Positions 16,889 to 32,154 of a stretch of DNA of 32,694 nt are shown in pieces. The position numbers and the translations under genes were made by a program. Source of the stretch: Alicyclobacillus herbarius DSM 13609 (GTDB taxonomy: Bacteria > Bacillota > Bacilli > Alicyclobacillales > Alicyclobacillaceae). Location of the stretch: the NCBI RefSeq assembly GCF_000430585.1, contig NZ_AUMH01000024.1:1-32694 (forward strand), written 5' to 3'. The notes under the pieces are model-generated. The model saw nothing but the letters and a program-made list of their open reading frames with translations. It had not been told where the DNA came from and ran no database searches. Numbering within the stretch: position 1 is the first letter of the stretch; every line of letters begins with the position of its first letter.

Positions 16889-17587
16889 CTATAACTTCCT
16901 CCGCCCGTGTGAGCGGGGACTCGTCCTGCCTCGCCTCGCCTGCCTGCGCATCGTAAATCTGCGGGTCAGGGCATACCACAGCGCCTCAAGCCCGCATCGG
17001 CGCGCGCCATCTACATCCGCTCGATAGTTATCGCCAATCATGACCGCCTTGTTCGGCTGTGTGCAAAGCCGTTCACAGGCGGCTTGGTATACGCTCGGAT
17101 GGGGCTTGGCCGCCCCAATATCGGCGGAGATAATCAACGTTTCCGGTTGAAAATAGGCGTCCAAACCGCAAATCACCAGTTTACGCCACTGCATATCGGG
17201 CGATCCGTTCGTAATGATCCCCAGCCGTGCACACGACTGTAACTTTTGCAACATCTCGTGCGTCCCGGGAAAGACGAACAGAGTCCGCTCAAGCGTCTCG
17301 TCATAGCGGCGCTGAAACGCCGCAGCCTCTGCCTCCGTTCGCTCCACGCCAAAATCTCGCCAGGCACGGAGAAACCGCTCCCGCCGTAGGTCATCCATCG
17401 TAATCTCCCGGGCGTCGTATTCGACCCACAACTGTTCATGATGGTGCATGAAACGCGCTTGAAATCCTGTCGGCAGCGCCTCGCCATACAACGCCTCTAA
17501 GGCCTCGTGGAGGCCAAGGTCATATTGCCGGCGCGTGTCGACTAATGTGTGGTCCAAATCAAAGAACACAACCTCATACGCAACCAT
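16889..17587 (-). CDS. HAD-superfamily hydrolase, YjjG/YfnB-like (noncanonical nucleotide phosphatase?)
   Basis: Cytoplasmic phosphatase of 232 residues with all four HAD motifs: DLDHTLVDT (nucleophile Asp10 and acid Asp12 from the chosen start), IITNGS (motif II), AAKPHP with the Lys (motif III), and MIGDNYRADVDGA (motif IV). An all-helical C1 cap lies between motifs I and II. The subgroup (YjjG, YfnB) removes phosphate from noncanonical pyrimidine nucleotides in characterised members, an appealing match to the divergent nucleobase permease, though the substrate is inference. ATG at 17587 has GGGGAGAGA upstream and starts right before the core strand; the longer frame to 17626 has no ribosome site. 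The tail after motif IV is very basic (TRRFTMRRQARRGR...), which is odd. Confidence 0.85.
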   Translation of the reverse strand: MVAYEVVFFDLDHTLVDTRRQYDLGLHEALEALYGEALPTGFQARFMHHHEQLWVEYDAREITMDDLRRERFLRAWRDFGVERTEAEAAAFQRRYDETLERTLFVFPGTHEMLQKLQSCARLGIITNGSPDMQWRKLVICGLDAYFQPETLIISADIGAAKPHPSVYQAACERLCTQPNKAVMIGDNYRADVDGARRCGLEALWYALTRRFTMRRQARRGRTSPRSHGRRKL

Positions 17588-17635
17588 GGAACAGATCTCT
17601 CCCCACAAACGTCGCTTCTCATCCATATTATCATG

Positions 17636-17681
17636 TTACCGTCCACAAATTACCGTCCCTACCACGAATCGTTGGACGGTT
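17636..17681. promoter_or_regulatory. three-copy GGACGGT motif in the HAD/permease divergent region
   Basis: TTACCGTCC occurs at 17636-17644 and 17650-17658 (direct, 14 bp apart), and the reverse complement GGACGGT at 17674-17680. The last copy runs into the -35 of the permease promoter. The arrangement suggests a regulator binding to several sites and blocking or activating that promoter, perhaps serving both divergent genes. Confidence 0.5.
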
Positions 17682-17708
17682 GCAAGCCTCTATGGATACG
17701 CTTACAAT
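17680..17708 (+). promoter_or_regulatory. sigma-A promoter of the NCS2 permease
   Basis: -35 TTGCAA (17680-17685), exactly 17-bp spacer, -10 TACAAT (17703-17708). Transcription should begin near 17715, giving a leader of about 108 nt. Confidence 0.7.
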
Positions 17709-17723
17709 CGATAGGTACGAATG

Positions 17724-17775
17724 TCCAGCGTTCTCTAGTGGATATACCATCATCTCAACGCTGGATTCCAGCGCT
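17724..17775 (+). promoter_or_regulatory. leader with mutually exclusive hairpins upstream of the permease
   Basis: Segment A TCCAGCGTT (17724-17732) pairs perfectly with segment B AACGCTGGA (17757-17765). Segment B can instead form CGCTGG-att-CCAGCG with segment C (17768-17773), which repeats the core of A. This A:B versus B:C arrangement looks like an attenuator or RNA switch. No U-run follows, so any effect would be on translation or RNA stability. It matches no riboswitch class that I recognise. Confidence 0.45.
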
Positions 17776-17822
17776 GAATTGCATCTCGATTTCACCGCCC
17801 CCGCCCGGATGGAGGGAACCAC

Positions 17823-19187
17823 ATGTTTACTCCTGCTCGCTTCGTCACCTTCTTTGCAGCTTTACAGTGGCTGGGATTCATGTTTGCCAATACCGTGGTC
17901 ATCCCACTGTCCGTGGGGCACGCGTTTCAACTGACACCCGAACAAATCAGCGGGGCCATGGCTCGGTCGTTCATCCTCACTGGGGCCGCCTGCCTTGTGC
18001 AAGCGGCATTCGGTCATCGCTTGCCCCTGATGGAAGGCCAATCCGGCCTCTGGTGGGGGGTGGTGTTAACCCTTTGTTCCCTCGCTCACGGGCCGGGCGC
18101 CCTGAAAACGGTTGGTAGCAGCCTTGAAATTGGCATGTTGCTCGGCGGTGTGGCGCTCGCTGTGTGCGCCGTGTTGGGGCTGCACCGCTTGCTCAACCGC
18201 TGGTTTACCCCGGTGACAATGGCGGTGTTGCTCATCCTTCTGGGTTCCCAGCTGGTGGATATCTTTTTTAAAGGCATGGTTGGGGTGACGGAGAGTGGAA
18301 AGATTCAGCCCGGCGTCGCCAGTTGGGCGCTACTCGTATCTCTGTTGGTCGCCGTCCTGACGATTGCGGGCAAGGGGCTGCTCAGCAACTTCTCGATTCT
18401 CATCGGCCTCAGTATCGGTTGGGTAGGCTATGTGATTTTCTTCGGATCGCCCGCGGCGGCCACGCCGCCGTTCCGGCACATGGCGGACTGGTTTGTTTGG
18501 GGAGACCCGTCTTGGAATTCCCTCGACGTCGGCATTCTGTTGACCGCCATCGTGACGGCCCTCATCAACACGACCAACACCATTGCCACCCTGCGCGCGG
18601 CAGAACCGACGCTCGCCATCACGGTCACAGATGCGGGGTACCGGCGCTCCTTGTTGGTTTCGGGTCTGTTCACGGCTTTGTCCGGGCCACTGGCACAGGT
18701 CGCGTACGCCCCCTACACCTCCACCATCGGTTTTCTGCGCACCACCCGCCTGGTGACCAAGGCGCCGTTTTTACTTGGCGCCGCACTGTTCGTGGTCATG
18801 GGTTTGCTGCCGCCCGTAGCAGGTTTCTTTTCACGCCTGCCCGTCCCTATCGGGGACGCCGTCTTGATGGTGGCCTATCTGCAACTCTTTGGCTCTGCCC
18901 TGCAAAACCTGGAAGGCATCACGTTCCATTTCAAGTCCATTTACCGCATTGCAGCCCCGGTGCTGCTGGGACTGGCGATTCAGGCCCTGCCGGCCGCCGC
19001 CTTTTCCAGTCTGCCACAGGTGCTGCGGGCCGTCCTGTCCAATGGCATGCTGGTCGGTGTCTTGATGGCCGTGATCTTAGAAAACGTCATCCCTTGGCAC
19101 CGATTCGCATCAGGTTCCCAAGCTCCGCAAAGGGTTCAGGCAGGGCCTCAATCGGCCGGGATGGACCAGTCGACCCGCTGTCGATAA
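17823..19187 (+). CDS. NCS2-family nucleobase permease, YwdJ-like (uracil/purine)
   Basis: Polytopic importer of 454 residues with about 12-14 hydrophobic segments. It belongs to the nucleobase-cation symporter-2 family. Diagnostic regions are LQWLGFMFANTVVIPLSVGHAF near the start, FGHRLPLMEGQSGLWWGVVL at about 63-82 (as in B. subtilis YwdJ), the family core ALINTTNTIATLRAAEPT near 241-258, and GPLAQVAYAPYTSTIGFLRTTR, corresponding to the conserved QN.G...T..R loop. The substrate is probably a purine or uracil. ATG at 17823 has GGAGGG at 6 nt. The gene is monocistronic, with a strong promoter and structured leader. Its 3' end overlaps the oppositely transcribed gene at 19148-19630 by 40 bp. 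Confidence 0.88.
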   Translation: MFTPARFVTFFAALQWLGFMFANTVVIPLSVGHAFQLTPEQISGAMARSFILTGAACLVQAAFGHRLPLMEGQSGLWWGVVLTLCSLAHGPGALKTVGSSLEIGMLLGGVALAVCAVLGLHRLLNRWFTPVTMAVLLILLGSQLVDIFFKGMVGVTESGKIQPGVASWALLVSLLVAVLTIAGKGLLSNFSILIGLSIGWVGYVIFFGSPAAATPPFRHMADWFVWGDPSWNSLDVGILLTAIVTALINTTNTIATLRAAEPTLAITVTDAGYRRSLLVSGLFTALSGPLAQVAYAPYTSTIGFLRTTRLVTKAPFLLGAALFVVMGLLPPVAGFFSRLPVPIGDAVLMVAYLQLFGSALQNLEGITFHFKSIYRIAAPVLLGLAIQALPAAAFSSLPQVLRAVLSNGMLVGVLMAVILENVIPWHRFASGSQAPQRVQAGPQSAGMDQSTRCR

Positions 19188-31182: not shown

Positions 31183-32154
31183 TTAGCCGAGGACGCGTGT
31201 GCACTTGATGAGTTTTGGCTGCCAATACGACGTATTCAACGACTGGTAGCAGACGCCCCCGTGTACGGTTGCCGAAATAAATTGCCCGCCGCCGGCCCAG
31301 ATGCCGACGTGGGAATACGGTTCTCCCGTGGTGTTGAAGAAGACCAAATCACCTGGCTGCAGTTGGGAGACCGAGATGGCGTGTCCGACCTGTGCTTGAG
31401 CGGCTGCGACTCTCGGCAGAGTGATACCGAAGTGAGCAAACACGGCCTGGACCAGACCCGAGCAATCCCAACCGCTCGTCGACTCACCGCCATACTGGTA
31501 CGGCTGGCCAAGAAACTGTTTCGTATAGTTGACAATATCCTGTCCACGGACGGATTGGGTTACACTCGCCGGCGGCAGTCCGCCTCGGGATGCGGGCGCT
31601 GGCGTCGTCGGTTGGGCCGAAACGTTGGCTGATTCGGCCGCCGGTTGCGAACCAGATGCCGCAGCCACGGCCGCGAGGTGCAGCACCATTCCTGGATAGA
31701 TGAGGTTGGGATTGGAGATGGAATTCCAACGGATGAGGTCGCTCACCGTGACACGGTTGCGCTGCGCAATGAGCCACAGCGTGTCTCCCCGGCGCACCAC
31801 GTACGTCTTGCCTCCAGTTTGGGTTTTAGCCGCCGTGGCAGTCGCGGATGCCCTCGAAGGTGTATCGCCCGACAATAAGAGAACCTGATTTGGATAAATG
31901 AGGTTTGGATTGGAAAGGTGATTGTACGCCGCTAGCTGGGAAACCGTGAGACCGTATCTGTGGGCGATGGACCAGACACTGTCCCCGGGTTTGACGGTAT
32001 AGGAAGTGGCGGCCAGGGCAGTGGTGATGCCCACCGCTCCGGTCAGTGCGCCGCCGACTGCGGTTCCGGCAAGACGGCGGTAGAGTTGGTTGGAACGTCG
32101 CACGGAACGACGCAAGTGCTGTGGCTGTCTTCGGTGACGCTTGCGGTGTTTCAC
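31183..32154 (-). CDS. LysM-NlpC/P60 peptidoglycan endopeptidase
   Basis: Exported cell-wall hydrolase of 323 residues, expected to cut the D-Glu to diamino-acid bond in stem peptides (DL-endopeptidase, like LytE/CwlS). A very basic N-region (1-27) and hydrophobic segment (about 28-48, ending ALA) form the signal peptide. Two LysM domains follow (about 51-95 and 117-160; YTVKPGDSVWSIAHRYGLTVSQL, YVVRRGDTLWLIAQRNRVTVSDL), then a Ser/Pro-rich linker, then NlpC/P60 (about 205-323). Catalytic residues visible: Cys231 in WDCSGLV, His282 in YSHVGIW, His298 in TVHGGV. GTG start at 32154 with AAGGAG at 8 nt. A c-di-AMP riboswitch lies immediately upstream, so expression follows the c-di-AMP level; such wall-hydrolase genes are known riboswitch targets. 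Confidence 0.93.
   Translation of the reverse strand: MKHRKRHRRQPQHLRRSVRRSNQLYRRLAGTAVGGALTGAVGITTALAATSYTVKPGDSVWSIAHRYGLTVSQLAAYNHLSNPNLIYPNQVLLLSGDTPSRASATATAAKTQTGGKTYVVRRGDTLWLIAQRNRVTVSDLIRWNSISNPNLIYPGMVLHLAAVAAASGSQPAAESANVSAQPTTPAPASRGGLPPASVTQSVRGQDIVNYTKQFLGQPYQYGGESTSGWDCSGLVQAVFAHFGITLPRVAAAQAQVGHAISVSQLQPGDLVFFNTTGEPYSHVGIWAGGGQFISATVHGGVCYQSLNTSYWQPKLIKCTRVLG

Follow-up and report, generated by a model that had tools for sequence, protein, structure and literature searches.

A possible local operator between divergent HAD-family hydrolase and NCS2 permease genes of Alicyclobacillus herbarius

Results

We analysed a stretch of 32,694 nucleotides from A. herbarius DSM 13609 (contig NZ_AUMH01000024.1), referred to here as the window, and all positions follow its numbering. 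The interval 17588-17822 lies between two divergent genes: to its left is a HAD-family hydrolase gene (16889..17587, minus strand), to its right an NCS2 permease gene (17823..19187, plus strand). The permease scores above the cut-off of the uracil/xanthine transporter model PRK11412, and its gene is preceded by a GGAGG-like ribosome-binding site (17811-17816, plus strand). The NCBIfam models nearest to the hydrolase are the YjjG_YfnB nucleotidase and TIGR02253, with both scores falling under the curated cut-offs. At its maximal length the HAD reading frame starts at 17626; position 17587 is the more likely start, since a GGGGAG ribosome-binding site lies upstream of it and the proteins of relatives align from residue 1-4.

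HAD matches (E 1e-30) were found in 22 of 41 genomes of the family, the own genome counted. Of the 21 family relatives with such a match, 17 have the permease gene as the divergent neighbour of the HAD gene, so that joint control of the two would make sense. Judging from this gene order, the conserved pair of a HAD phosphatase and an NCS2 permease may have a joint role in nucleobase salvage. The permease query has a single match in its own genome. Among relatives the best match is 62% identical, and the 11 loci returned from named relatives, several Alicyclobacillus species among them, show 52-60% identity. In the two remaining genomes of the genus, the HAD match is lacking and no permease exceeds 35% identity. 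Elsewhere in the window, a c-di-AMP riboswitch (RF00379, 32159-32294, minus strand, 71.9 bits against a threshold of 38) immediately precedes a gene for a LysM-NlpC/P60 cell-wall hydrolase (31183-32154, minus strand); such genes are a usual target of this riboswitch class.

The promoters of both genes probably lie within the interval. For the permease, the predicted promoter is TTGCAA-N17-TACAAT (17680..17708, plus strand), with the −10 element TACAAT at 17703-17708 and 9 of 12 positions matching; sites of this quality are expected 0.5 times by chance in the 401 bases scanned. The earlier note had described a near-consensus promoter here: the −35/−10 pair with its 17-bp spacing is indeed present, but at 9/12 and with 0.5 sites expected by chance the label is generous. 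No minus-strand site was reported by the promoter scan. A GATAAT on the minus strand, within the left arm of the dyad described below, could serve as the −10 for the HAD gene.

A set of GGACGGT repeats occupies the sole spot between the divergent genes and contacts the predicted permease −35. The sequence TTACCGTCC occurs exactly at 17636-17644 and again, as a direct repeat on the plus strand, at 17650..17658; the start-to-start distance of 14 bp corresponds to no integral number of helical turns. An inverted copy, GGACGGT, exact across seven bases, follows at 17674-17680, and the permease −35 (TTGCAA, 17680-17685) begins at its final T. All three copies, including the one entering the −35, are thus where the earlier note had placed them. 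The two outer copies form the cores of longer inverted arms that share the composite element TGGACGGT-N10-TATGGAT. The left arm (17621..17645, minus strand) includes the first TTACCGTCC copy, while the right arm (17673..17697, plus strand) includes the inverted GGACGGT and overlaps the permease −35. In the 3.31-Mb genome the exact composite element occurs at two sites, both in this interval and mutually inverted. Allowing up to two mismatches yields four further sites in the own genome, equal to the four control matches; three are within long ORFs and one is near a methyltransferase gene. The latter (L114; genome G000, contig C1, 206617-206641), with two mismatches, lies ahead of a methyltransferase-domain gene and is the only one of the four outside a long ORF.

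We assessed how unusual these arrangements are with 5000 dinucleotide shuffles of 17627-17822 and with 76 intergenic regions of 120-400 bp taken from 300 kb sampled in the own genome, which we judge to be the better control. A 9-bp direct repeat within 50 bp arose in 91 of the shuffles and a 9-bp inverted repeat in 80, with both occurring jointly in 3. The corresponding counts among the 76 genomic regions were 5 for the direct repeat, 10 for the inverted repeat and 1 for the two together. A triplet of the A/B/C kind described below was found in 8/5000 shuffles and in 2 of the 76 regions, none of which combined it with a direct repeat; over the 32-kb window, the real sequence contains 3 triplet matches against a shuffled mean of 0.9 (sd 1.2). 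Each repeat or pairing is therefore ordinary taken singly, and their combination is uncommon.

The dyad was assessed in the same manner. Across 200 shuffles of the whole interval its score was reached by 4, 1 and 5 shuffles under three mismatch penalties, and in the 115 bases upstream of the transcript it was reached by 0/200 for each penalty. Arms of 25 nt with 18 matches, a measure picked post hoc with the dyad already seen and counted without G015 (region of less than 60 bases), were absent from all 19 of the divergent intergenic regions sampled and present in 6 of the 76 regions of all kinds; no region of the 76 combined 25-nt arms with a direct repeat. The plain dyad score was equalled in 4, 2 and 2 of the 19 divergent regions under the three penalties and in 18/76 regions of all kinds, and was also reached in one of 21 relatives' regions. 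Given how often divergent and other intergenic regions equal the plain score, the dyad appears suggestive rather than exceptional.

The predicted permease transcript contains three further segments on the plus strand: A (TCCAGCGTT, 17724..17732), B (AACGCTGGA, 17757..17765) and C (TCCAGCGCT, 17767..17775, pairing stretch 17767-17773). As proposed in the earlier note, B can pair either with the upstream copy over 9 bp or with the downstream copy over 6 bp. A and B constitute a perfect 9-bp inverted repeat, while the 6-bp B:C helix closes a 3-nt loop and is extended by three extra pairs past a 1x1 mismatch; as DNA, B and C form a near-palindrome (17757-17775). When cut out, the A:B and B:C stems fold better than shuffled sequences (z −4.1 and −4.4), whereas the whole leader, taken from 17715 onwards, shows no such advantage (z −0.81). 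By ensemble energy the A:B state is favoured over B:C by 3.4 kcal/mol. In both forced states the ribosome-binding site is predicted to be paired with early coding sequence (unpaired probability of G17811-G17814 at most 0.01 with A:B and at most 0.14 with B:C), and the choice between the two pairings therefore has no visible effect on the site. A scan of the interval found no intrinsic terminator, so that neither termination nor differing masking of the ribosome-binding site provides a predicted expression platform. In an Rfam search of 17600-17850 with E values up to 10, the sole match was to a snoRNA model (E 4.7), whose 15.4 bits are far short of the threshold of 44. Rfam families likewise gave no match in 20 loci comprising the own locus, relatives and two paralogues.

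The leader DNA matched in none of 60 relatives. In an alignment of 18 leaders (own plus the 17 relatives that keep the gene pair), segments A, B and C are not kept, with at most four positions equal to the own sequence, and no pair was predicted in the consensus structure; this alignment is poor, being built from the last 130 bases of regions 58-390 bases long, and omits the 4 of 22 HAD loci that have no permease in the fetched stretch (G007, G014, G016 and G028). Homologous leaders thus displayed neither conserved nor covarying alternative helices: the earlier note had proposed to ask whether A, B and C are conserved or covary in relatives, and this test fails at the distances available (permease identity at most 62%). 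With up to three mismatches, the A/B/C pattern was found across 59 genomes of the order in the own genome and 3 of the 58 others, against 3 in the control; the own match alone is exact, and none of the three others is at the permease match. Conservation at these distances is a coarse test, and with the closest permease 62% identical it rules out a widespread switch and does not speak against a species-specific one.

The operator-like elements were not conserved either. Among the regions upstream of the HAD gene in the 21 relatives there was no inverted repeat longer than 8 bp (loop up to 40), and the best GGACGGT direct repeat scored 12/14, no better than chance level; this score came from a locus without permease (G014, reached by 4/200 shuffles), followed by 11/14 in G008 (11/200). 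Direct repeats of at least 9, unrelated in sequence, were present in 5 of the 21 regions. A three-part operator pattern searched in the 59 genomes occurred at 10 places in 7 genomes, against 9 in the control; the own occurrence alone is exact, and the other nine, by contig and coordinate, are not at a permease match. Two relatives have repeats of their own between the HAD and permease genes. One interval (L095, G004) is filled by about a dozen 14-bp tandem copies (CACACTGGCAAATG) that are absent from the other relatives, and another (L090, G003) contains a 16-nt direct repeat, GAGAACTTTTCCTACC, with its copies 25 bp apart, a possible operator of different sequence at the equivalent place.

Searches of the own genome for a regulator or regulon were negative. 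No regulator gene adjoins the dyad, and there is no second exact site of the composite element outside the interval. The direct repeat with up to three mismatches was found at itself and three other sites, against four in the control, and ACCGTCC-N7-ACCGTCC with up to two mismatches matched 51 times, against 34 in the control; no regulon emerged from the direct repeat, the match list of the wider pattern, the three-part pattern or the composite element. We considered PucR as a regulator and rejected it: the sole PucR-domain protein above the cut-off in the genome adjoins an aminotransferase gene, the near-motif count is at chance level, and its locus has no 9-mer in common with the interval. 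A literature search covering titles and the beginnings of abstracts contained, among the matches listed, nothing about this element.

Discussion

Collectively, we tentatively favour, at somewhat short of an even chance, a reading in which the GGACGGT copies form a local operator and the A/B/C hairpins are incidental rather than a ligand switch. Two of the copies, in the inverted TGGACGGT-N10-TATGGAT pair, would form this operator together with the extra one. A DNA-binding regulator would occupy both the permease −35 and the region where the HAD transcript starts, either lowering expression of the two genes or placing a co-regulator. In the permease leader, A:B would be an incidental stem and B:C its weaker alternative. 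The placement of the dyad fits an operator for both genes, as the permease −35 falls under the right arm and the HAD promoter is expected at the left arm; the latter position presupposes the translation start at 17587, which the ribosome-binding site and the relatives suggest. The operator layer of the earlier note therefore survives in part: each predicted promoter position has copies of the repeat, and no exact composite element lies elsewhere in the genome, but conservation in relatives is lacking. Repeated and dyad sites are found at the promoter, though equal-scoring dyads are not rare in the genome, and the sites are not kept in orthologous promoters among the 59 genomes of the order or the 21 relatives' regions. 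The analysis directly shows the repeats, the dyad, the gene order and the absence both of conservation and of an evident output of the RNA alternatives; the promoters, operator function, the direction of control and a regulator are what we infer from this arrangement.

It is quite possible, although we do not favour it, that the repeats and hairpins are inert, having arisen by chance, and that the interval contains promoters and a leader only. Each element taken singly is common in intergenic regions of the own genome (5/76, 10/76 and 2/76, with the dyad score in 18/76), and no element was seen in relatives; what speaks against chance is the rarity of the direct and inverted repeats together (3/5000 shuffles, 1/76 regions), the 0/76 for a direct repeat with 25-nt arms, and a composite element that is exact twice in the genome, both times here. 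In another reading, B and C (17757-17775, AACGCTGGATTCCAGCGCT) would be a second protein-binding DNA palindrome acting as a roadblock about 45 bp past the predicted transcript start, and A would serve as a spare half-site. The palindrome is near-perfect (11-nt arms, 91% complementary, 1 nt between them) and its arm spacing suits an operator no less than an RNA hairpin; yet with up to three mismatches it occurs in the genome only as itself and is absent from relatives, and we consider this unlikely.

The reading proposed in the earlier note, in which the leader is an RNA switch that controls the permease through pairing of B with A or C, now seems highly improbable. Both pairings are real, the isolated stems beat shuffles and such a triplet is rare in shuffled intervals, but the full leader folds unremarkably, has no Rfam match and no terminator, and leaves the ribosome-binding site paired in both forced states with A:B favoured. 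Moreover, the A/B/C pattern is no more frequent in other genomes than in the control and is not at the permease there, the 18 leaders yield no consensus structure, the 60 relatives have no matching leader, the segments are not retained by the 17 that share this gene pair, and the alternatives lack a visible output. A young, lineage-restricted nucleobase-sensing leader RNA, alternating between A:B and B:C and combined with a shared operator through which the conserved HAD phosphatase partner gene would be controlled as well, seems more improbable still. Most likely, the A/B/C segments form an incidental hairpin. Were there an RNA switch here, it would represent a new class, but the evidence speaks against one. 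If the operator at the GGACGGT copies is real, it would place a nucleobase permease and a HAD phosphatase under joint control and would hint at a role of the phosphatase in nucleobase salvage; such joint control would be of use for annotation and not surprising.

Several known systems bear comparison with this locus. Purine (guanine/xanthine) riboswitches control purine genes, permeases included. The NMT1 riboswitch has been reported to bind xanthine. Unlike both of these, the leader described here has no covariance-model match, and we found neither an aptamer-like conserved region nor an expression platform. In PyrR attenuation, the leader RNAs of pyrimidine genes form alternative hairpins; the permease leader is similar in its alternative hairpins and differs in having no terminator and no Rfam family at threshold. 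In Bacillus subtilis, PucR controls purine permeases. Unlike in that system, the PucR-domain protein here is encoded next to an aminotransferase gene and its locus shares no 9-mer with the interval. Like operators in divergent promoter regions, the GGACGGT element consists of repeated and inverted short sites that overlap a −35; it differs from them in that the composite occurs at no further site in the genome and is not conserved in the relatives examined.
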